A stretch of 64,000 nucleotides of DNA from Oscillospiraceae bacterium (GTDB taxonomy: Bacteria > Bacillota > Clostridia > Oscillospirales > Ruminococcaceae). Positions within the stretch are counted from its first letter, which is position 1, and every line of letters starts with the position of its first letter. A program made the position numbers and the translations under genes. Positions 8,263 to 60,303 of the stretch are shown piece after piece. The stretch lies in NCBI GenBank assembly GCA_009784825.1, contig WQXO01000004.1, positions 62,001-126,000 on the forward strand, given 5' to 3'. The notes beneath the pieces were generated by a model that was given only the letters and a program-made list of their open reading frames with translations, ran no database searches and was not told the DNA's origin.

Positions 8263-9069
8263 ATGGGTACGATTTATATTGATTTATTGATAATCATTAA
8301 CATTTACATAACTTTTTTCATGATAAGAAGCTCGGGGGCTTTTCTCCACAGGAAAATCGGGGCGGTGAGGGTTCTCCTCGGCTCAATTGCGGGAGGGGCT
8401 TCATCGCTTATAATTTTCCTCCCCCCACTGCCGTTTCTTTTAACTATATCAATCAAAATCGCAATAGGACTGCTGATTACCCTAATCGTTTTCGGGTATA
8501 AAAACATTCATGAATACTTGAAAAACGCACTGATATTCACGATAATCACCGTAGTGTTTGCAGGATTTACAATGCTGTTGTGGCTGTTTGCCGCACCGCT
8601 CTCAATGGCTTACAGAAACGGTATTGCATATTTCAACATATCCTTCCCCGCATTGGTAATTACAACAGCGTTAGCATACGGGTTAATTAAGCTCCTGCGG
8701 TATATTCTCGATATTCGACAAGCGGCACAACGCAGTTATACTGTTCAGATAATTCGCACAGGTTATGCAGTGGAGCTTAACGCATTAGCCGATTCCGGAA
8801 ACATGCTGACCGACTATTTCTCGGGACTGCCGGTAATCATCTGCCCGAAATCAGCGGTAAAGGAGCTTATTCCGGATGTCGGAGCAAGGCTGTTACCCTA
8901 CAACACAATTAACTCATCGGGGTTAGTATCGGTTTTCAGAGCCGACAGCATAATTATCAAGACAGACGGTAAACCCGATAAGAGCGTCAAAGCCTTAGTC
9001 GGTGTCAACCCCCACCATAACGAAAACGACGAAATAAAAGCAATATTCAATCCGAAATTATTAATATAA
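8263..9069 (+). CDS. spoIIGA: SpoIIGA, pro-sigma-E processing peptidase
   Basis: A 268-residue membrane aspartic peptidase that, at the sporulation septum, removes the pro-sequence of sigma-E. Five hydrophobic segments fill the first 150 residues, and the soluble C-terminal half carries the catalytic [11 protein letters not shown] motif at about 175-185. The N-terminus [19 protein letters not shown] matches the usual MxIYLD start of SpoIIGA, which fixes the start at 8263 although no ribosome binding site precedes it. Length is somewhat below the roughly 300 residues usual in Bacillus. sigE follows by 16 bp. Expression is probably from the leaderless-type promoter just upstream. Confidence 0.92.
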
Positions 9070-9085
9070 ATCAAGAGGTAAGAAA

Positions 9086-9802
9086 ATGGGCGAACTGCAA
9101 AGAGTCTTAAGGAATCTGTTTGAAAAAATCAGGATAATAAAAAAAGAACAAGGCGTATTCTACATAAACGGGGCAGAGTCACTCCCGCCTCCTCTTTCAA
9201 AGGAGGAAGAGGAAACCGCATTCGCAATGCTGATTACTGACTTTAATGCAGCACGTGAAATTCTGATTGTTCATAACCTGCGGTTGGTTGTGTACATTGC
9301 GAAAAAGTTCGAGTCCACGGGAATTGGAATAGAGGACTTGATTTCCATTGGCACAATCGGCTTAATTAAAGCGGTTAACACCTTCAGCCCCGACAAGAAC
9401 ATCAAGTTAGCTACCTATGCCTCCCGCTGTATCGAAAATGAGATACTGATGTTCTTACGTAAATCCAACCAGTATAAATACGAGATTTCCATTGACGAAC
9501 CGCTCAACATAGATTGGGACGGGAACGAGCTTTTACTGTCCGATGTCCTCGGCACCGACAACGACGTGGTGAATATTAACATAGAAAACGAGGTTGAACG
9601 CAATCTATTGCTTTCGGCAATAAAGCGGCTCAACCCCCGTGAACGGCAGATTATGGAAATGCGGTTCGGGTTGGACGACGGGAAAGAACGCACTCAAAAG
9701 GAAGTCGCCGACCAAATCGGAATTTCTCAAAGTTATATCTCCCGACTTGAAAAAAGGATTATTAAGAGATTGAGGAAAGAATTAGAGCAGTTATGCGGGT
9801 GA
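9086..9802 (+). CDS. sigE: RNA polymerase sigma-E factor (mother cell sporulation sigma)
   Basis: A 238-residue sigma-70 family factor. An N-terminal pro-sequence of about 30 residues precedes the conserved [20 protein letters not shown] region, where SpoIIGA cleaves in homologues. Region 2 contains [13 protein letters not shown] and [17 protein letters not shown], and [13 protein letters not shown]; region 4 contains [17 protein letters not shown] and the helix-turn-helix [20 protein letters not shown]. An AAGAGGT ribosome binding site lies before the ATG. The usual downstream sigG is absent; a terminator follows instead. The stop codon TGA is also the first three bases of a 44-bp repeat. 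Confidence 0.96.
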
Positions 9803-42031: not shown

Positions 42032-42076
42032 ATAATTAATAATTAATAATTAATAGTTAATAATGTATAATTGACA
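42031..42076. repeat. AT-rich repeat before the CoA-transferase gene
   Basis: Units of AATTAATAATTAATAATTAA are followed by AATGTATAATTGACAAT, close to the AATGTACAATTGACAAT core of the 44-bp repeat. The TTGACA in it serves as the -35 box of the next promoter. Confidence 0.65.
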
Positions 42077-42100
42077 ATAGGCAGTAGATTAATGTATAAT
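42071..42100 (+). promoter_or_regulatory. Promoter of the CoA-transferase gene
   Basis: TTGACA (42071-42076), 18 bp spacer, TATAAT (42095-42100). The -35 box lies at the edge of the repeat block. Confidence 0.72.
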
Positions 42101-42149
42101 ATATTATCATAGTTATTATTATTTGTCAAATGTTTTGAAAGGATTATTT

Positions 42150-43652
42150 ATGTTTAAGATTGTTTCTTCACGTGAGGCGGTTGACCTTATCCCCGATAAC
42201 GCCTGCGTTGCCGTTAATTCGTTCCTGGCACTGTCAAATCCTGAACAATTACACAAATCCATTTATGACCGGTTCATTACGACCGGTTCGCCTAATAATT
42301 TACGAATGTTCTGCTCTGCCGGGTTTGGTGCGTGGGACGAAGCACGTTTCGCTGACCCGTACATTAAAGCGGGGGCAGTATGTGAGATTGTCGCGGGTCA
42401 CTTTAACAGTATGCCTTGTGCAATTAAAGCGGCATTAGCGGGGGAAATTGAGGCTTATTGTCTACCGTTAGGCGTTCTTTCTCATGTTGTTCGGGCTGCC
42501 GCCTCCGGTAAGGATTATCACCTTAGCGAGGTGGGAATAGGTATATACGCTGACCCTCGTGTGGGAAGTTATGCACTTAATTCTAAATCCAAGAAAGAAT
42601 TAGTCCGTGTGTGTGAGTTTGAGGGGAAAGAGTATCTGCTTTATGAAACTCCCCAGATTGATATTGCACTGCTTAAAGGGACAACTGTTGACCCGAACGG
42701 GAATATTTCGTTCGAGAAGGAATACCTCACCGTTGATGCGTTGGCGTTAGCACAGGCGACTAAGCGGAACGGCGGTAAGGTAATTGTGCAGGTTGAGCGG
42801 GTCAGCCACGAGTTCTCCCGTCCAAGAAATGTAATCGTTCCGGGGATATTAGTGGATTATGTGGTGGTTTGTGAGGAGGTGAACGATTCTAAGGTATATA
42901 ATCCTGCTTTGTCGGGGGACGTTCATGTTCCGGCTTCGCAGATGGATTATTATGTGAATAAGCTGTCTACCACTAAGAACAGGAATCCTGAGGATAAAAC
43001 TGCTGATATTATCGGGGAGCGTGCCTCGTGCGAATTACAGGCGGGGCATCTCATAAATATCGGAATAGGTATTCCTGAGATGGTGGGTAAATATGCCTCT
43101 AAAAAAGGGATTTTGAAAGACATAGTCACCACCGTTGAGGCGGGCGGAATAGGCGGACTCCCTGCACCGGGAGTGGCGTTCGGGGCGACAATCGGTGCGG
43201 ATATGATATGTGACATGGCAACCCAGTTCGATTTTTATGACGGGGGTGGGCTTGATATATGTTTCTTGGGCGGGCTGGAAGCCGATAAACACGGCAATGT
43301 CAACGTCCACGAGATTGAGGGGGGTTATCCCGGGATTGGCGGGTTTGCGAATATCACCCACTCCACTAAGGTGATTGTGTTTTGTTTGAGCTTCAACACA
43401 AAAGGATTAATCGCCGTTAAAAACGGCGATAAGGTGGTTATTAAACAAGAGGGGAAGATTCCGAAGTTTATTAAGCAGGTTAGGGCAATCAGCTTTTCCG
43501 GGGCTGAAGCGGTTAAACGGGGTCAGCGGGTGCTTTATGTGACCGAGCGGTGTGTGTTCGAGCTGACCTCCTCTGGGTTAAGGCTGAAAGAAGTTTATTC
43601 AGGTATAGACGAGGTTAAGCAGATTAGAGAGTTATTGGAGTTTGAGGTGTAG
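42150..43652 (+). CDS. Acyl-CoA:acetate/propionate CoA-transferase-like enzyme
   Basis: A 500-residue class I CoA-transferase with fused alpha and beta halves. The catalytic Glu is in TTVEAGGIGGLPAPGVAFGA, and GxGxPE-like NIGIGIPEMVGKYA precedes it. The length and fusion match propionate CoA-transferase and related 3-ketoacid CoA-transferases used in fermentative acid production. The ATG at 42150 is chosen because AAAGGA lies eight bases before it and the sequence then starts MFKIVSSREAVDLIPDNACV, as homologues do. It is a single-gene unit facing the phosphatase gene convergently. Exact substrates are unknown. Confidence 0.9.
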   Translation: MFKIVSSREAVDLIPDNACVAVNSFLALSNPEQLHKSIYDRFITTGSPNNLRMFCSAGFGAWDEARFADPYIKAGAVCEIVAGHFNSMPCAIKAALAGEIEAYCLPLGVLSHVVRAAASGKDYHLSEVGIGIYADPRVGSYALNSKSKKELVRVCEFEGKEYLLYETPQIDIALLKGTTVDPNGNISFEKEYLTVDALALAQATKRNGGKVIVQVERVSHEFSRPRNVIVPGILVDYVVVCEEVNDSKVYNPALSGDVHVPASQMDYYVNKLSTTKNRNPEDKTADIIGERASCELQAGHLINIGIGIPEMVGKYASKKGILKDIVTTVEAGGIGGLPAPGVAFGATIGADMICDMATQFDFYDGGGLDICFLGGLEADKHGNVNVHEIEGGYPGIGGFANITHSTKVIVFCLSFNTKGLIAVKNGDKVVIKQEGKIPKFIKQVRAISFSGAEAVKRGQRVLYVTERCVFELTSSGLRLKEVYSGIDEVKQIRELLEFEV

Positions 43653-45230
43653 TTATCCTTTGTACTTCAGCATGAGCATGGTTATATCGTCGGCTTGGGG
43701 GGCTTCGCCTGCGAATTCATCGATTTTCTCCTTGACGTATACCGAGAATTCCTCAATTGTGTTATATTGACATTCGTTTGCCACCACTAACAAGTACGGG
43801 TCGGTGAACAGCTCCTCCTCCATGTTTTGGGCTTCGGTGACACCGTCGGTGTATAGATACAATTCTTCGCCGGGTTGAATTGTTATTTCGTTTTCCACGT
43901 AGGGCATTTCCTCCATTCCCGCTAAGACGAACCCGACTTTTCCGTTGAGCCAGTCAAACTTTCCGTCACGCTTCAAAATGGGTGGGTTGTGCCCTGCGTT
44001 GACAAAGGTGAATTTGCCCGTGGGAATATCGAGATAACCCATGAACGCTGTCACGAACATTCCCGCATCATTACCCTCGCACAACATGTTATTGGCGGTT
44101 TCAAAAACCTCGCCGGGGGACAATCCCCTTAATGCACTGTTTTTAATAAGTGTCTTCGCAATTACCATAAATAATGCGGCGGGGACACCTTTACCGGACA
44201 CGTCTGCCATTACTATGGCAAGCGTGTTTTTGTCTATGAAAAAGAAATCGTAGAAGTCGCCGCCTACCTCTTTAGCGGGACACATCGAGGCGAACAGCTC
44301 AAGCTCCTCTCTCACAGGGAAATTCGTTGGCAGCATGCTCGCTTGAATTTGTGTGGCAACGGTCAGCTCCGCACCTATACGCTCTTTTTCGGCAGTGACT
44401 GCCGTGAGGTTCTTGATATAGGTAATCATATCGATTGTCATCTGCTCGATACTTACGGAAAGTGTTTCGATTTCATCATTGGTTTTTATGGTGCTGACAA
44501 TGGGCTGAAGCTCTTCCTCGGAGTTTTTGTTGACAAAGTTGTCGGTGCTTTCGGAAAGCTTTTGAATTGGGCGGGTGATTTTGCTCCTGAAGTATAATAT
44601 AGCAATTGCCGTAAACACAAACATAATCATTGCCGCACCGATTATTACCGTGAACAGGTATGTTTGGCGTGTGGAATTAATATCATACATATCAATATCC
44701 ACTACTAAAATCCCTATTATATCTTCGTTTGTATCTCTCACCGCCATATATGCGCCCATCATATGCCCGTATCGTGATACGTCGGTGATAAACTGAATGT
44801 CATACCCCATTTCGTCAATGTTTAAGTTGTTGGGGAGCGGGTCTGTATTAAGCAGTGAAACTAAGAATTGCCCTTCCCTAAGCTGGTTGAGTTCAGCTTC
44901 GGTATATGCGTTTATGTAGTATATCATTCTATCGTCCTGCGGGTAGAAATAATACAGGAAGGTTATGTCGGTTTCCTCCACCAACATGTTAAACGCAATT
45001 TGTGTGTAATGATACTGAAGTGTTTTCTCTCCCGAGTTAAGGCAATAAAGCATATCATCGGTGTCGATATGACTCCTTGCTACTTTGAGAATTGATGATG
45101 CAAATTCCTCATATCTTTTCACAACCGTAGCCATATAGGTTTCATATCCAATGTAACCGATTGCCGAGCTCAATGCTATGGAAAACAAAAACATGATTAT
45201 TATCAGTTTTCTGCTCAATCCTCGAAACAT
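43653..45230 (-). CDS. SpoIIE/RsbU-type PP2C phosphatase with sensor and HAMP domains
   Basis: A 525-residue membrane protein: N-terminal helix (about 8-30), extracytoplasmic sensor region (about 31-180), second helix (about 185-210), HAMP (about 215-275) and C-terminal PP2C-type phosphatase (about 295-525). Metal-binding Asp motifs CPAKEVGGDFYDFFF, VMADVSGKGVPAALF, LYLYTDGVTEAQ and QADDITMLML are intact. Such enzymes dephosphorylate STAS antagonists in response to external signals. It ends the operon with the surface protein, RsbW-like kinase, GGDEF and STAS genes, lying only 3 bp after the surface-protein stop, so it is the likely input arm of the circuit. Confidence 0.93.
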   Translation of the reverse strand: MFRGLSRKLIIIMFLFSIALSSAIGYIGYETYMATVVKRYEEFASSILKVARSHIDTDDMLYCLNSGEKTLQYHYTQIAFNMLVEETDITFLYYFYPQDDRMIYYINAYTEAELNQLREGQFLVSLLNTDPLPNNLNIDEMGYDIQFITDVSRYGHMMGAYMAVRDTNEDIIGILVVDIDMYDINSTRQTYLFTVIIGAAMIMFVFTAIAILYFRSKITRPIQKLSESTDNFVNKNSEEELQPIVSTIKTNDEIETLSVSIEQMTIDMITYIKNLTAVTAEKERIGAELTVATQIQASMLPTNFPVREELELFASMCPAKEVGGDFYDFFFIDKNTLAIVMADVSGKGVPAALFMVIAKTLIKNSALRGLSPGEVFETANNMLCEGNDAGMFVTAFMGYLDIPTGKFTFVNAGHNPPILKRDGKFDWLNGKVGFVLAGMEEMPYVENEITIQPGEELYLYTDGVTEAQNMEEELFTDPYLLVVANECQYNTIEEFSVYVKEKIDEFAGEAPQADDITMLMLKYKG

Positions 45231-45233
45231 AAT

Positions 45234-48200
45234 TTACAATCCTTTTTTCAATCTTATACGTCTTACGGTGAATGCTGTTCCTCCACCGACTGCACCTGCA
45301 CCCGCTACGGAAACCGTAACCACTAACGGGACATTTGCACCCTTTTTATCGTCTGCAACAGACTCGTCGGGTTGACTTGAACCGGGGTCAATTATTTCCT
45401 GCACTCGTGAGGGTACTAACGCATCCGGTTCACTCGTGGTGGGATTAAGCGGAGCGGGTGATACGGGAGGAGGAGTTGTTCCGGTTATGGGGGGTGGTGT
45501 TGTACCGGTTACGGGAGGTGGTGTTGTTCCGGTAACGACGGGGGGATTTACATTGACCGCAGTTGGTATATTCAACTCAATAACCGGCGGGGGTTCTGCG
45601 TCAGCGACATTCTGAACTCTTCCGCCCTCGGCTTTCGGTGCTGCCATAAGGAAATAATTCGAGAATTTCGACAGGGTGACTGTTACGTTACCGTCCCTAT
45701 CCACCGCTAAGTCTTCGCTGATTAGAATAAACTCGAAGGTTCCGTCCGGGTTTTGGTGAATTCCGAAGAATAACAGCTTCATCCCGTCTTGACGGTATTC
45801 CTCGGGTACTGAGAATTTGATACTGACCGTGCCGTCGCCAAGGTCGATTATATTGCTCCCGTTGTAGTCGAGAGTTATGTCAAATCCGACAATCAATGCG
45901 TTTTCTACATCGAAATCGTCGCTTTCTAATGCGTCGAACAACGCTTGTAACGCTTCAATTACCTCATTTGAATCTGCACCTCCGCCCATTAGGTTGGTGA
46001 GGAATTCTACAAGGTCATCTAAATCATCCTCGGTTTCTACTATGAATAATGTGAGATTTTCAAGGTCGTCTATTGTGTGGGTGTTGCCGTTTTCATCTGT
46101 TATTTTATCGCCCTCGCCGAGTGATGTGTCTGCACTCTCTATGCCTACACCACTGTCACCGGGTTCGTCCTCGATGTTCATACTGCCGTCATCGTCGGGT
46201 TCGGGTTCGGGTTCGATGGGAGGGGGAGGATTGCCGAATACAACGGAAATGTTAACGTCGCTTTCAAAAATCCAAACAGAAATATGCATATAATCATCAC
46301 GAAAATCGTGAACATCTATACCAAAACTGACATAATCGTTGGCAGAATTAGGAGGGTTGGCAGTTGTAAACGTAAACCCGTTTATTGCTACGCTGAGAAC
46401 CCTTTCTCCACTGTTCGGTTCGGCATATAACTCTATACCGTTTCCGGTAAAGAACCAGTCGCCGGATGAAACAGGACCTCCTCCGGCAAATCCCTCAGCC
46501 CAGAGAGTTCCGTTACCGGTTTTACTGAATGTGACGGTGTGAACCTTTATCCATTGTGCATAAAGTGTAACAGGTTCATTTAAAGTATACTGCCAGCCTG
46601 TAGCCGCACTGTGTGTATTTCCCGAGCCGTTAGCCATTGTGTTCCATCCGTCGAAAATATACCCTGTTCTTGTAGGGAATTCAGAAGTCGGTGAGAAGTT
46701 CACGCCGTGCGTTTTTGTTTGAGTTGCGGGGACACTGCCCAACGAACCGCCGTTAGCGTTATATGTGATAGTGTAGGTGTTCAGTGTCCAGTTGGCAGTG
46801 TAGGTTTTGTTTCCTGTACTGCCTATGGGAATAGTTACAGTCGTCTGCGGGGTTGCACCATTAGCACCCGTCCACCCTGTAAAAGTATATCCGGTTTTTG
46901 TTGGGTTGGTGAGTGTTATGGTGGCTGTTTCTATGCTGTAGGTTGCAGGGTTTGCAGTGGCAACCGTGCCGCCGTCAAGCTCGTAGGTAATATTGTAGGT
47001 AGGGATTTCACCGTTAATCGTGCCGCCGGTGTGGTTTACTGTAACAGTTCCGGTGCCTGCACCTCTTCCGACTGCTAAACCACTGCCTCCGCCTGTGGCG
47101 ATAATCGTACCGCCATATATGTTTACTGTGCCGCCGCTACCGTTTCTGCCGCTACCTATGCCTGCACCGCCGTCACTGCCGCCTGTAGCGTTAATATTGC
47201 CGCCGTATATGTTGATTGTGCCACAGCCGTTATTTAAGCCGCCGCCAATCCCCGCACCGTTAGTGTTACCTGCGACGGTAATCGTACCCATGCTTGAACC
47301 CGTTGATTGTACGAAAATATTTACCGTTGCGTTGACTGTTCTAATACCGGGATAATCGGCTCCGACACCGGAAAGTTCTACCGTTAAATGTGCATTATCT
47401 TCAAGAATTATATTAAGTGTTCCGCCTTCCGTCGCAACTAAAGACCTTGTAATAGTAACGTCGCCCCGTACAACAAGCCAAACACCGTCGAAAAAGCGTA
47501 CTTCGTTAGTATTGCCAAGAGACACCATATCGGGAACAGAAGCGGTAGGCATTGATGTGAGTATAATTGAATTATTCTGGGGTGAGTTTGCGGAAGTACC
47601 GCTTGCGTTGAGATATGTAACGGAAGCCAAAACAACAGGTTGAGCTCCCGTAATTGTTCCGCTACCTCTAATTATACCTTTGTTTATAATCGTGCCTGTG
47701 GTATTGCTGATAGTGCCTGTATTGTCAATAATGCCGTTTAAGTCTTCGCTATCGCTATTAAAACCGTTGACAGTAATCGTTCCGGTATTGGTAATTGTGC
47801 TTGCATTGGTGACTCTTCCCACACTTTGGACATTAAATGCCCCGCTGTTGGTAATTGTGCCATTATTGGTAAGTGTACAGAAGAGAATTGTAAGTGTACC
47901 GTCATTTGTATTTGTAATCGTGCCGCTATTGGTAATTGTACTGTAGTTAGCTGTAAGTGTACCGTTATTTGTAATCGTGCCTGCATTGATAATTCTACTG
48001 TAGTTAATTTCTTGAAGCCCACCGTCACTTGCGAGTGTACCGTTATTTGTAAGCGTTACGCCACTCGGAATTGTAAGCGATGTACTCGCCGGGGCGGTAA
48101 GCGTTCTGCCGCTTGGTATTGTTAAATTGCTTTGGAGAGTTACACTACCGTATACCGTGCCGGAAACATTAGCACCTTGAACACCTAAAAACAGGATACC

Positions 48201-49211
48201 TCGGTCTAATTCTTCTTGATAAGGTTCATTGACTTTTATAGAAGAGGTGTATACAATCGCATTGCCGTCTAAAGTAACCCTACCGTCGACACCGCTTACA
48301 TTAGCACCATTACCTATACCGCCGTTTGCGTTTCCCTCACCCTCGGTTGTTACAACACCGCCGGTTATATTAATTTGACCAAATCCGCCGTTATTGCCGC
48401 CACCGATAGCCGCCGCAAGGCTACCGCCGCTTGTAGCATTGACTGTACCACCTGATATTAGAATGCTTCCACCTCTACTGCCGGCACCACCACCACCGCC
48501 GCCGCCTATTCCTGCGGCTCTGTAACCTCCCTTGGCGTTAACTGTACCGCCGGTTATGGTAATAGTATTATTGTCACCATTAGTACCGCCGCCAATACCC
48601 GCCCCGCCTTCGCCGGTAGTTCCGCCAAGATTGCCGCCGTTAGCGTTAATTGTGCCGCCGTTTATAGTGATTTGTCCGTGGGTTGAACCAACTGAACCGC
48701 CAATTCCCGCACCGCCGTCACTGCCGCCTGTAACATTAAGTGTGCCTGTACTGTCGGCGGTTATTATCAGCTCTGCGAGGGGGGAACTGCCGTCACCCAC
48801 TTCTATTCCTGCATTTACAGAATTCGCAGCTAAGGTGTTTGTTCCGCGGAGTGTGAGGTATAAGGTAGCATCATTCTCTATTTTAATAGGTGCAAGTGAT
48901 GTAATAGTTGCATTTTCCAGAATTACATTTGTAGTAACGCCGGCATTTACCGTTATGCTAAAAGTGGCGGAAGAACCCGTAATTGTATATTCGCCGCCAC
49001 TGGTGCTAATGGTCAGGGGAGTAGCATCTGTGCCAAGATTAATGTTTTGAATATACGCCGCTGATTTTATATTAAACACACCGAGGTAGTCCCCGATTAC
49101 TTCATTCAACGCCTCAAACGGGGTGTTATTCACCGTTAACGCACCGGCTACAAGTAAGCCGAGTGCCGCCTTTCGGATTTTATGAAATTTACGCTTTTGC
49201 TGTCTGTTCAT
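45234..49211 (-). CDS. Large cell-surface protein: Cthe_2159-like beta-helix, InlB repeats, Pro-rich stalk, membrane anchor
   Basis: A 1325-residue secreted protein. After a signal peptide (about 1-50) comes a Gly/Asn/Thr-rich beta-helix region with AGIGGG-type turns similar to the Cthe_2159 polysaccharide-binding family (about 60-320), a stretch of TITNNGTLT-type tandem repeats (about 385-540), a second Gly-rich block (about 560-740), two InlB/Flg_new repeats (each ending in GYTFTGW or GYIFDGW then ANW/AQW), an acidic EPEPEPDDDG joint, a globular part, four TGTTPPP units and a C-terminal hydrophobic helix with RRIRLKKGL. No LPxTG motif is seen, so it is probably held by the last helix. Binding to plant or host polymers is plausible. 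Confidence 0.87.
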   Translation of the reverse strand: MNRQQKRKFHKIRKAALGLLVAGALTVNNTPFEALNEVIGDYLGVFNIKSAAYIQNINLGTDATPLTISTSGGEYTITGSSATFSITVNAGVTTNVILENATITSLAPIKIENDATLYLTLRGTNTLAANSVNAGIEVGDGSSPLAELIITADSTGTLNVTGGSDGGAGIGGSVGSTHGQITINGGTINANGGNLGGTTGEGGAGIGGGTNGDNNTITITGGTVNAKGGYRAAGIGGGGGGGAGSRGGSILISGGTVNATSGGSLAAAIGGGNNGGFGQINITGGVVTTEGEGNANGGIGNGANVSGVDGRVTLDGNAIVYTSSIKVNEPYQEELDRGILFLGVQGANVSGTVYGSVTLQSNLTIPSGRTLTAPASTSLTIPSGVTLTNNGTLASDGGLQEINYSRIINAGTITNNGTLTANYSTITNSGTITNTNDGTLTILFCTLTNNGTITNSGAFNVQSVGRVTNASTITNTGTITVNGFNSDSEDLNGIIDNTGTISNTTGTIINKGIIRGSGTITGAQPVVLASVTYLNASGTSANSPQNNSIILTSMPTASVPDMVSLGNTNEVRFFDGVWLVVRGDVTITRSLVATEGGTLNIILEDNAHLTVELSGVGADYPGIRTVNATVNIFVQSTGSSMGTITVAGNTNGAGIGGGLNNGCGTINIYGGNINATGGSDGGAGIGSGRNGSGGTVNIYGGTIIATGGGSGLAVGRGAGTGTVTVNHTGGTINGEIPTYNITYELDGGTVATANPATYSIETATITLTNPTKTGYTFTGWTGANGATPQTTVTIPIGSTGNKTYTANWTLNTYTITYNANGGSLGSVPATQTKTHGVNFSPTSEFPTRTGYIFDGWNTMANGSGNTHSAATGWQYTLNEPVTLYAQWIKVHTVTFSKTGNGTLWAEGFAGGGPVSSGDWFFTGNGIELYAEPNSGERVLSVAINGFTFTTANPPNSANDYVSFGIDVHDFRDDYMHISVWIFESDVNISVVFGNPPPPIEPEPEPDDDGSMNIEDEPGDSGVGIESADTSLGEGDKITDENGNTHTIDDLENLTLFIVETEDDLDDLVEFLTNLMGGGADSNEVIEALQALFDALESDDFDVENALIVGFDITLDYNGSNIIDLGDGTVSIKFSVPEEYRQDGMKLLFFGIHQNPDGTFEFILISEDLAVDRDGNVTVTLSKFSNYFLMAAPKAEGGRVQNVADAEPPPVIELNIPTAVNVNPPVVTGTTPPPVTGTTPPPITGTTPPPVSPAPLNPTTSEPDALVPSRVQEIIDPGSSQPDESVADDKKGANVPLVVTVSVAGAGAVGGGTAFTVRRIRLKKGL

Positions 49212-49226
49212 GAATATACCCCTCTC

Positions 49227-49622
49227 TTATGACAACTGCTTCTTAATTGTAAGAATGTTCTTGCTTCCGTCACGCCTGTATTCAACCGAGTCCATTATAT
49301 TTTTCACCATAAATATGCCTAAGCCGCCGATTTCCCGTTCCTCTGCGGAAAGAGTAATGTCCGGGTCTTCGTTCAGTAACGGGTTGTAGGGAACACCACT
49401 GTCCTCAAATTCGATGGTTATATCGTCCTCCGCCTTTATGCGGACAGTGACACTGCCTGCATTAGGATTGTAGGCATAGGCGGCGATATTCGCAAAGATT
49501 TCGTCAATGACAATTCCGATTTGGCTTTGAATTTTCATCGGGCAGTGTTCGATATGCTCGTTTACAAAATCCAGCACCTTGTCTAAATTTTCTGTTTTGG
49601 CTTCGACAAAAAGTTCATACAT
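49227..49622 (-). CDS. RsbW-like anti-sigma/serine kinase (GHKL ATPase)
   Basis: A 131-residue ATP-binding protein of the RsbW/SpoIIAB type. The N box is GIVIDEIFANIAAYAY, the G1 box FEDSGVPYNPL and the G2 region GGLGIFMVKNIMDSVEYRR. Proteins of this class bind a target (often a sigma factor) and phosphorylate STAS antagonists. No sigma gene is in the operon, so the target is unknown. It lies 15 bp upstream of the surface-protein gene and follows the GGDEF gene after a gap of about 60 bp containing a small hairpin. Confidence 0.92.
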   Translation of the reverse strand: MYELFVEAKTENLDKVLDFVNEHIEHCPMKIQSQIGIVIDEIFANIAAYAYNPNAGSVTVRIKAEDDITIEFEDSGVPYNPLLNEDPDITLSAEEREIGGLGIFMVKNIMDSVEYRRDGSKNILTIKKQLS

Positions 49623-49654
49623 ATTTTATGCTCCTTTATATTTAACGTGACAAG

Positions 49655-49672
49655 TCCCGACGTGAAAGTCGG
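49655..49672 (-). other. Small intercistronic hairpin
   Basis: CCCGAC-GTGAAA-GTCGGG lies between the GGDEF and RsbW-like genes. On the minus strand no T-run follows, so it is more likely an RNA-processing or stabilising hairpin than a terminator. Confidence 0.5.
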
Positions 49673-49685
49673 GTACTTATTACTG

Positions 49686-50273
49686 CTAACGCGGTTTTTG
49701 CCCTTTTGCGGCTTTCATTTCGACTTTGTTGGCGTACATACGTTCGTCGGCGATTTTCAACACGTCTTCAACACTGTAATCCTGTGAGCCGTATGCCGTT
49801 CCTGCTGAAATTGAACAGTGGATTCCATCGTCTGCCGAGTTAAGCACTGCCAGACCCTCACGCCATTTCACCATTACTGCGTCAATGTCCTGCTCGGTGC
49901 AGTTTGTAATTATCGTGACAAACTCGTCGCCTCCGAGGCGGAAGGAGTGAATGTTCCCTCCGGAAATATTCATAAGGCTTTCTGCCGCTTTCTGCAAGAG
50001 CAGGTCGCCTGCGTGATGACCCTTGTTGTCGTTGTAATACTTCAGGTCGTTTACGTCATAAAAGATTATTCCGACGGTTGATGCACGGTTCTTCAGCTCC
50101 GCAATGAAGCTGTGATACTTATTGCTTCCGGGTAAGCCCGTCAGCGTATCAAGCTCAAAGCGTTCTAATAACCGCTTATAGTATTCGACTAAGCCCGCTG
50201 TTTCTTTAAGTAAAAATAACACATCTTCACTGTCTGAGCCGAGTTCAGCCAAGAATTCTTCCGCTACGTTCAT
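49686..50273 (-). CDS. Diguanylate cyclase (GGDEF), single-domain
   Basis: A 195-residue protein with a short helical N-terminus (about 1-40) and one GGDEF domain (about 41-185). The active-site motif is FRLGGDEFVTII, with ELDTLTGLPGSNKYH at the domain start and YDVNDLKYYNDNKGHHAGD for substrate and metal binding. The RxxD inhibitory site normally five residues before GGDEF is absent (GGNI there), so product inhibition should be lacking. No sensor domain is attached. The ATG overlaps the STAS stop as ATGA, so the two are translationally coupled and likely functionally linked. Confidence 0.93.
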   Translation of the reverse strand: MNVAEEFLAELGSDSEDVLFLLKETAGLVEYYKRLLERFELDTLTGLPGSNKYHSFIAELKNRASTVGIIFYDVNDLKYYNDNKGHHAGDLLLQKAAESLMNISGGNIHSFRLGGDEFVTIITNCTEQDIDAVMVKWREGLAVLNSADDGIHCSISAGTAYGSQDYSVEDVLKIADERMYANKVEMKAAKGQKPR

Positions 50274-50584
50274 TGAGCAACCTCTTCAAATTTAAGTACA
50301 CTGGCGAACCCCGTCATATTAAACACTTCCATTATATCCTCAGACACGTTTTTCAGCTTCATTGATACGTCCTTGGATTTTGCTGTTTTCTCTCCCATAA
50401 GTAAAACCCTCAGCCCTGCCGATGAAACGTATACAAGGTCTTTAAAATCGAGAATTACGTCTTTCCCTAATTCAAGCTGTGCCATAAGTGTTTTTTGCAG
50501 GTCTGCGGCTGTCGAGGTATCAAGCCTTCCGAATAAGCCGAGTACGTTTTGGGTGTCGTTTTCTGTTGTTACGATGTTTAACAT
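50270..50584 (-). CDS. STAS-domain anti-sigma factor antagonist
   Basis: A 104-residue STAS protein of the RsbV/SpoIIAA type. The phosphorylation site region is VYVSSAGLRVLLMG, with Ser at the usual place. In partner-switching circuits the kinase phosphorylates it and a PP2C phosphatase resets it; both genes lie in the same operon. It overlaps the GGDEF gene by 4 bp. Confidence 0.93.
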   Translation of the reverse strand: MLNIVTTENDTQNVLGLFGRLDTSTAADLQKTLMAQLELGKDVILDFKDLVYVSSAGLRVLLMGEKTAKSKDVSMKLKNVSEDIMEVFNMTGFASVLKFEEVAQ

Positions 50585-50629
50585 GTTATTTTTCCTCCAA
50601 AGATTTTTTTTATATTTCGCTGAAAATAA

Positions 50630-51544
50630 TTAACCGTTTACCGCTGTGTAAAAGTCCGGGTGCATGTCTGTCATTCCCCAGCTGTTTTTCTCCGAACCGT
50701 ATCGCACGCTTTTGTATGTAACGCTTGCTATACCGGGAGTACACCCCAAAAACGCATTTGAACCAACGTATGTCACACTGTCGGGGATTTTCACGTTGCC
50801 TAACTTACTGCACCCGTTGAACGCCCCTCCGCCTATGCTTGTCACTCCCTCCGGAATGGTTACGCCGGTTAACTCCGCACAGTCCTGAAAAATGCTGCTT
50901 TCGACTGCTGTTAAACCCGCCGGTAATGTACACCCCGCAAGTCCCGAGCAGTTTTGGAACGCTCTTTCTCCGATTGAAGTGACTGTGTCGGGAATGTCAA
51001 CGCTCATTAGTCCTGTGCAGTTCTCGAAAGCTCGTTCGCCTATGCTTGTTACGCTTTCGGGGATTGTGATAATTGTCAGCCTTTCACACCCTACGAACGC
51101 CTCTGCACCTATGCTTAACACACCGTCCGGTATGGAAATAACCGTTAACCATGAGCAAAGACTGAATGCACCGTATCCGATTTCTGTCACCCCTGCAGGG
51201 ATAGTGAAGTTAGTCAGCCGCTTGCACCCGAGGAACGCACTCCTGCCGATATTGGTAATGCTTGTCGGGAGAATGACATTGGTCAATCCCGAGCAGAGGC
51301 TGAACGCACCGTCACCTATGTTTGTTATTCCCTCGGGGATTGTTACGTGTGTCAGCTCCTCGCACCCGAGAAATGCCGCATTTCCGATTGATACGATGGC
51401 TTCACCCTTTACTGTTGCGGGAATTGTTACCCTTTCGGCGTTCCCCTTGTATTTTTTAATCTCAACCTTTTTTCCTCCGTCGTCCGAAGAAATGAATTTA
51501 TAATCAAAGTCGGTTAAATTGATTACCGGATTATTTTCCATCAT
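50630..51544 (-). CDS. BspA-like leucine-rich-repeat protein without signal peptide
   Basis: A 304-residue protein made of about ten 23-residue LRR_5/BspA-type repeats (pattern TxIPxGVTxIGxxAFxxCxxL). The first 40 residues (starting MMENNPVINLTDFDYKFISS) are soluble, and no signal peptide or anchor is visible, unlike most BspA relatives. It may therefore act in the cytosol or be exported by a non-classical route. It is first in the operon with STAS, GGDEF, RsbW-like, surface protein and phosphatase genes, preceded by a good promoter. Confidence 0.88.
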   Translation of the reverse strand: MMENNPVINLTDFDYKFISSDDGGKKVEIKKYKGNAERVTIPATVKGEAIVSIGNAAFLGCEELTHVTIPEGITNIGDGAFSLCSGLTNVILPTSITNIGRSAFLGCKRLTNFTIPAGVTEIGYGAFSLCSWLTVISIPDGVLSIGAEAFVGCERLTIITIPESVTSIGERAFENCTGLMSVDIPDTVTSIGERAFQNCSGLAGCTLPAGLTAVESSIFQDCAELTGVTIPEGVTSIGGGAFNGCSKLGNVKIPDSVTYVGSNAFLGCTPGIASVTYKSVRYGSEKNSWGMTDMHPDFYTAVNG

Positions 51545-51571
51545 TTATCAATCTCCTGTATGTTTTTCAAA

Positions 51572-51600
51572 ATTTTAACATATATTTTGTATATTGTCAA
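51572..51600 (-). promoter_or_regulatory. Promoter of the LRR/partner-switching/surface-protein operon
   Basis: On the minus strand TTGACA (51600-51595), 17 bp spacer, TAAAAT (51577-51572). A leader of about 20 nt contains an AGGAGA ribosome binding site before the ATG at 51544. Confidence 0.75.
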
Positions 51601-60130: not shown

Positions 60131-60159
60131 TTGACAAATTGAATTTCATATGCTAATAT
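60131..60159 (+). promoter_or_regulatory. Promoter driving the riboswitch and CDF gene
   Basis: TTGACA (60131-60136), 17 bp spacer, TAATAT (60154-60159). The predicted start at about 60166 coincides with the first base pairs of the riboswitch. Confidence 0.65.
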
Positions 60160-60166
60160 AGTTAAA

Positions 60167-60303
60167 ACTGAGCAGGCGATGGATTCGTTTAAGAATTCGT
60201 GGTGCCGGGTCGCTAATGCGACTAAAGTCGCTAATGCAACTTTAGTTGCTAATGCAACAGTAGGATATACCTACGGGACAGTAATGTCCCCGTAGGTATT
60301 TTT
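60167..60303 (+). ncRNA. NiCo (czcD-motif) riboswitch with built-in terminator and expanded P3
   Basis: The leader matches what I recall of the NiCo riboswitch consensus: ACTGAGCAGGCGATG, hairpin GGATTC/GAATTC, GCCGGG, a hairpin, GCAACAG, hairpin GTAGG/CCTAC, then GGGACAGT. P1 pairs ACTG (60167-60170) with CAGT (60279-60282). CCTACGGGACA (60270-60280) can instead pair with TGTCCCCGTAGG (60285-60296), followed by TATTTTTA: a terminator exclusive with P1/P4. Metal binding should thus turn the gene on. P3 is expanded into three 18-bp units GTYGC-TAAT-GCRAC (60209-60258). The next gene is a CDF exporter. Confidence 0.85.

Follow-up and report, generated by a model that had tools for sequence, protein, structure and literature searches.

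A partner-switching operon without a sigma gene in an Oscillospiraceae bacterium may set the activity of a diguanylate cyclase

A partner switch is commonly taken to control a sigma factor. The window analysed here, a stretch of 64,000 nucleotides from an Oscillospiraceae bacterium (contig WQXO01000004.1, positions 62,001 to 126,000), holds six closely packed minus-strand genes at 43653-51544, with the antagonist, kinase and phosphatase of a partner switch, a GGDEF diguanylate cyclase and a very large surface protein among them, and a sigma gene is absent from the set. The operon is real, conserved and beyond chance. We consider it moderately likely that it encodes a partner switch which works independently of sigma factors and adjusts how active a diguanylate cyclase is, the cyclase having no sensor of its own. 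A literature search found no paper describing the operon. The genes and the site ahead of them are as follows.

51572..51600, minus strand: promoter-like site TTGACA-17-TAAAAT with extended TG (consensus match only, 11/12)
50630..51544, minus strand: BspA-type leucine-rich-repeat (LRR) protein, 304 residues, probably cytosolic (LRR_5, 5.7e-68)
50270..50584, minus strand: STAS antagonist, 104 residues (STAS, 2.2e-14; alignment to 6m36_B)
49686..50273, minus strand: stand-alone GGDEF diguanylate cyclase, 195 residues (GGDEF, 6.8e-25; RLGGDEF intact)
49227..49622, minus strand: RsbW-like serine kinase, 131 residues (HATPase_c_2, 1.7e-21)
45234..49211, minus strand: surface protein, 1325 residues (Flg_new, i.e. 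Listeria-Bacteroides, repeats; C-terminal hydrophobic anchor 1296-1314)
43653..45230, minus strand: sensor with two transmembrane segments, HAMP-like linker and SpoIIE (PP2C) phosphatase, 525 residues (SpoIIE, 6.9e-46)

A sequence-only reading had assigned six genes of these families to these places, and both the open reading frames and Pfam agreed: LRR_5, STAS, GGDEF, HATPase_c_2, the Flg_new repeats and SpoIIE were all above the Pfam cut-offs. The intergenic gaps from the LRR gene to the phosphatase gene were 45, -4, 63, 15 and 3 nt, so that the proposed ATGA overlap of the STAS and GGDEF genes was confirmed at 4 nt, and the LRR protein, described as cytosolic-looking, had no detectable hydrophobic segment. 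The proposal of a single promoter stood as far as the consensus match goes, and we infer that the six genes lie on one transcript; a scan over 11 kb gave 30 sites of at least 9/12 against 19 expected. A hairpin between the GGDEF and kinase genes was rejected as an intrinsic terminator, as no T tract follows it on the coding strand.

The main evidence comes from relatives of the cyclase. In a sample of 197 genomes of the family, the GGDEF protein had three orthologues (56-67%) and the next match was at 35%. A scan of a species-genome collection gave ten loci (L061-L070) at 56-78% identity, three of which are those three family genomes (identical contigs), followed by L071 at 43% and the rest below 40%. 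Two further samples comprised 394 and 386 genomes. The three family orthologues already known did not appear in the larger of these, where the four other proteins matching below 1e-25 were longer, different GGDEF proteins. Genome contigs were scanned with two peptide patterns as query, and the survey models for STAS, GGDEF, kinase and phosphatase were built from the studied loci, with L071 added for STAS. With the window counted as the eleventh locus, the gene orders were these.

Window: LRR, STAS, GGDEF, kinase, surface protein, phosphatase
L061: STAS, GGDEF, kinase, surface protein, phosphatase, LRR (all six genes)
L062 (contig end): STAS, GGDEF, kinase
L063: surface protein, STAS, GGDEF, phosphatase, kinase
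L064: S8 protease, STAS, GGDEF, phosphatase, kinase
L065: STAS, GGDEF, surface protein, phosphatase
L066 and L069: STAS, GGDEF, membrane protein, PrsW, sigma factor of the extracytoplasmic-function (ECF) type, large protein (cut in L066)
L067 (Fibrobacterota): GGDEF, STAS 1.1-1.2 kb on, sensor-HAMP protein truncated where the contig stops, its phosphatase part unseen
L070 (Fibrobacterota): GGDEF, STAS 1.1-1.2 kb on, sensor-HAMP-SpoIIE-HATPase fusion
L068: GGDEF, with no STAS on the contig and a STAS-kinase pair elsewhere in the genome

A STAS gene thus lay within 1.3 kb of the GGDEF gene at 10 of the 11 loci and directly upstream at 8, while a STAS gene was found at 1 of 94 non-orthologous GGDEF loci taken as control. 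The junction measured -4 to +2 nt in six of the eight adjacent pairs and was wider in L063 and L064. A separate kinase gene adjoined at 5/11 loci and a separate phosphatase gene at 5/11, in varying order; the surface domain occurred at 4/11 and the LRR gene was in the operon at 2/11. The stable part in relatives is the STAS-GGDEF pair, and L061 retains all six genes. Because the pair persists at 10/11 loci, whereas the kinase and phosphatase genes are present at some and missing at others, the cyclase is most likely the main output of the switch. The claim that no sigma factor is present held for the operon, and no sigma gene lies beside the module in L061-L065 (L061 has an ECF-like gene 2.8 kb upstream on the opposite strand), but in two relatives an ECF sigma gene follows STAS-GGDEF. 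At L055:13111-15944 and L056:5196-12354, a seven-segment membrane protein, a PrsW protease and an ECF sigma factor come after STAS-GGDEF. L056 also encodes a 1451-residue protein that has a single hydrophobic segment near its start (66-94) and a ricin-type lectin domain, and that resembles an anti-sigma factor bearing a giant outer part.

The catalytic parts of the system appear intact. D73, N81, D82 and G114-G115-D116-E117-F118 of the cyclase were invariant among 11 orthologues, its N-terminal helix (12-45) was conserved, and Pfam found GGDEF and no other part in its 195 residues. RxxD is the inhibition-site motif of cyclases. As read from the sequence, none stands ahead of GGDEF in this protein, and the claim that all motifs are intact holds for the key motifs of STAS, kinase, cyclase and phosphatase with that qualification. 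Ser55 of the STAS protein aligned in register with the serine of the RsbV DST motif (6m36_B), which we take to be the phosphosite. The kinase kept E41 and N45 of the N-box and the GGLG box (5 orthologues), and the phosphatase kept the aspartates of GGDFYD, ADVSG, TDG and DD (5 orthologues). The architecture given for the latter protein was borne out for SpoIIE and for two hydrophobic segments (4-29 and 189-216), with a predicted extracytoplasmic part of about 160 residues, whereas HAMP scored 20.1 bits, under its cut-off of 25. Pfam gave no Response_reg match on this protein, and its best match among solved structures was a response-regulator PP2C (3es2/3eq2), a chain that is presumably HsbR.

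A mechanism can be proposed on this basis. The membrane phosphatase would sense an external signal through its extracytoplasmic part and remove phosphate from Ser55 of the STAS protein, and the kinase would put it back. Unphosphorylated STAS would most likely bind the cyclase at its N-terminal stalk helix and favour the active dimer; cyclic di-GMP (c-di-GMP) would rise and act on receptors elsewhere, two PilZ proteins being present in the genome. The co-transcribed surface and LRR proteins may be adhesion or matrix factors of the same state. In the available account of the Sia system, SiaC binds and activates the SiaD stalk, and phosphorylation of SiaC stops the activation (PMC8457831). By analogy, the phosphatase would turn the cyclase on and the kinase would turn it off. 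This polarity is held with only moderate confidence because the preference of HsbD is the opposite: it is reported, in the accessible part of the source, to bind phosphorylated HsbA (PMC5085249).

That last report weighs against the proposed mechanism, and so do several of our own results. Distances in STAS and GGDEF over 9 loci were not correlated (r 0.10, p 0.31); coevolution is unsupported and the case for direct STAS-cyclase binding is weaker, as far as 9 short sequences can tell. The N-terminal part of the cyclase was modelled at a predicted local distance difference test score of 58-75. The GGDEF gene was absent at E 1e-25 from 13 other genomes drawn from the same genus, L068 has no STAS gene on its 15.8-kb contig, and L065 has no kinase gene on its contig. 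The c-di-GMP-I riboswitch was found in 0 of 10 genomes, where all 14 controls were silent too. Over 4 loci, too few to use, distance correlations were r 0.85 (p 0.04) for kinase-STAS and r 0.51 (p 0.10) for kinase-GGDEF.

The kinase could instead belong to an ordinary anti-sigma circuit, in which it holds an unlinked sigma factor that STAS releases, the cyclase being a mere neighbour. The genome (2.18 Mb, 32 contigs) has 33 Sigma70_r2 matches, 31 of them above cut-off, and two relatives have the ECF sigma gene noted above. Furthermore, the kinase matched RsbW and SpoIIAB equivalog models, although far under the cut-offs (32.9 vs 145, 25.2 vs 155 and 24.6 vs 135 bits). Unlike in the SigB and SigF switches, no sigma gene adjoins the kinase; the sole Sigma70_r2 match in the window is SigE (9086-9802), about 34 kb away. 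A survey of the kinase family points the same way. At E 1e-18 its profile matched 85 of the 386 genomes sampled from the family (111 places), and it also matched 10/10 genomes carrying the GGDEF gene, six of them outside the profile-building set. Of 41 kinase loci, 33 had a phosphatase gene on the same strand no more than 4 kb away, 27 a STAS gene, 2 a GGDEF gene and 1 a sigma gene, the sigma search using at most 11 queries (own-genome sigma proteins and one ECF query). These 41 are 39 fetched places, mostly best-scoring, together with L139 and L057, and stand apart from the window's and G136's own modules and many lower-scoring places. With a sigma gene near 1 of 41 loci, a partner switch that has none close by is common in the family. 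Part of what the sequence-only reading had called unusual, the joining of partner switching and c-di-GMP in a Clostridium-type cell, is also reported for Moorella as partner control of a cyclase. An anti-sigma circuit would also leave the STAS-GGDEF linkage without explanation, and we regard it as unlikely.

Slightly less probable again is direct control of the cyclase by the kinase, with STAS sequestering the kinase and so freeing the cyclase, as in the MtT-MtG stressosome pathway of Moorella thermoacetica. That organism is clostridial. The kinase gene is directly 3' of GGDEF in the window, L061 and L062, and a kinase of the family adjoins another GGDEF gene in L139, but STAS-GGDEF adjacency holds with no kinase at the locus in L065, L066 and L069. 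Moreover, MtG is described, in the portion of the source at hand, as an RsbU_N-GAF-GGDEF protein on a stressosome scaffold, none of which was seen in the window, where Pfam gives the cyclase GGDEF only. It could also be that export, anchoring or stability of the surface or LRR protein is what is switched, with the cyclase as accessory, and surface-protein display had indeed been offered as a possible output. The membrane-proximal domain of the surface protein recurs at 4/11 loci, L061 retains all six genes, and query residues 1020-1211 matched a single place in the own genome and 2 of 386 family genomes (the own and G136, whose module is L064), both with the module. Judging by this distribution of its domain, the surface protein is unlikely to be a simple passenger. 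As the main target, however, it is improbable, and the least so favoured of the three: the domain is absent at 7/11 loci (L062 and L067 being short contigs), distal parts are only partly alike between loci, and the protein has no evident cytosolic domain to take a signal. The sigma-independent switch acting on the cyclase is therefore the reading that we retain.

Among known systems, BgrUWV-BgrR and SiaABC-SiaD come nearest in function, ahead of HsbR/HsbA/HsbD, to which the sequence-only reading had likened the locus when it rightly named the cyclase as a possible output. In Sinorhizobium meliloti, the phosphatase BgrU and the kinase BgrW are reported to set the state of BgrV, a STAS protein that in turn controls a cyclase (PMC7647112, PMC8457831), and PP2C phosphatase, kinase, STAS and GGDEF cyclase are all present here. 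However, this likeness is by description and not by sequence or gene order; that system is proteobacterial, has mixed-linkage beta-glucan as output and extra BgrS and BgrT, and the available text describes no surface protein. SiaABC-SiaD of Pseudomonas aeruginosa likewise unites a sensor-PP2C, a kinase, a STAS-like partner and a stalked cyclase in one operon. SiaD aligned with the window cyclase over 1-187, the SiaA PP2C (6k4e) matched the window phosphatase by sequence, and a GGDEF protein with an N-terminal helical stalk, modelled at moderate confidence for the window cyclase, lies beside PP2C, kinase and partner genes in both. SiaC, in contrast, is a DUF1987 protein with a threonine phosphosite, whereas the window partner is a true STAS/STAS_2 protein with serine and no DUF1987 match; SiaD has an inhibition site, which the window cyclase lacks; and scores stayed far under the NCBIfam equivalog cut-offs (SiaA 58.9 vs 700, SiaD 59.1 vs 290 bits). 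In the Hsb pathway of P. aeruginosa a STAS protein also binds a cyclase, and the response-regulator PP2C resembles the window phosphatase. As far as the source describes it, HsbR is a phosphatase/kinase that carries a receiver and takes its input from HptB, while the window protein has two transmembrane segments, a HAMP-like linker and no receiver, and HsbA also binds FlgM. The same wiring was proposed from co-occurrence for PP2C/kinase/STAS/c-di-GMP-enzyme sets of Campylobacterota (PMC9239204), a prediction in another phylum for which the accessible text describes no surface protein. The switch type is thus known from Pseudomonas and Sinorhizobium; what looks new is the group of bacteria that carries it, its connection to surface proteins, the alternative setting with PrsW and an ECF sigma factor, and an apparent spread across phyla.

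The host is probably a termite-gut bacterium, an origin inferred from kinship with the relatives. Seven of the ten relatives are metagenome-assembled genomes (MAGs) from named higher-termite guts, and the MAGs Pal332 and Cyl330 account for the other three loci. According to the part of the source available, the MAG names Th196, Emb289 and Co191 stand for guts of Termes hospes, Embiratermes neotenicus and Cornitermes (PMC7024585). In the tree, the 11 catalytic domains formed a single clade (100/99) against 18 other GGDEF domains (the own-genome domain L240 gave no match and was left out), with L071 as sister (88/80). At L071:9182-10827, in Candidatus Adiutrix, the gene for the GGDEF protein and a STAS gene converge, 8 bp apart. 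Since a Fibrobacterota trio (100/98) nests inside the clade, beside L066/L069 (only 94/82), the module has apparently moved between Bacillota and Fibrobacterota, a spread that rests on three loci. Mis-binning of these contigs is unlikely because the three MAGs form their own subclade and have a distinct G+C content (0.54-0.55 vs 0.37-0.49 in seven Oscillospiraceae loci). Plasmid and phage records (3050 and 61) gave GGDEF-protein matches all below 60% identity, and plasmid records gave 8 kinase matches, with no sign of a carrier. Tentatively, the pair might form a cyclase cassette that is mobile among termite-gut bacteria and has crossed between these phyla; it would sit under varied surface-sensing heads (PP2C/RsbW with giant membrane-anchored surface proteins, or PrsW/ECF sigma with a giant anti-sigma-like surface protein) and turn outside touch into c-di-GMP.

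The surface protein consists of a beta-helix-like repeat, Listeria-Bacteroides repeats, the membrane-proximal domain (about 1080-1215), which ends in an LSxFSNYFL-like stretch, and the anchor. Beta-helix repeats are shared by the window and L061, and Listeria-Bacteroides repeats by the window and L065. No LPxTG sortase motif was found near the C-terminus, where one loose match, NPTTS, lies at about residue 1256. G136 holds five tandem copies of the domain on another contig (C5; L231, L232), in proteins of about 1000-1180 residues, with copies of a small gene of about 280 residues between them. The link between surface domain and module is a lead on gut bacteria possibly tying attachment to c-di-GMP. 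The findings would extend Sia/Bgr-type control of cyclases to uncultured termite-gut Oscillospiraceae, in a family whose kinase/phosphatase/STAS sets mostly have no nearby sigma gene; one branch offers a concrete enzyme output, assayable with few purified proteins.

The genome of the window has 3 SpoIIE domains, 8 HATPase_c_2 matches (4 above cut-off) and 8 GGDEF domains, of which the window's alone is in a short frame (199 vs 560-864 residues). A second switch on contig C1 consists of STAS, a MATE transporter, a 327-residue protein and a sensor-SpoIIE-HATPase fusion. In L139:4040-9916 the row is STAS, MATE transporter, a 276-residue protein (formyltransferase-like by eye), sensor-SpoIIE, kinase and, 42 bp downstream of the latter, a different GGDEF gene, which makes a second pairing of the kinase family with a cyclase. 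In L179 the phosphatase is followed by a PAS-HD protein. A family of about 200 residues occurs at 13 of the 41 kinase loci (L198:4683-5288 and 12 others), often between STAS and kinase; two members had no Pfam match, and an LRLLAEEM stretch may point to another partner of the ATPase type. Within the window, SigE adjoins a SpoIIGA-like gene, and because of this pair (8263-9802) the organism is taken to retain early sporulation genes. The phosphatase gene abuts end to end a CoA-transferase gene (42123-43652), ahead of which lies a 12/12 sigma-70-type promoter match (42071-42100), and a NiCo riboswitch (Rfam RF02683, 56.2 bits) is located at 60158-60283.

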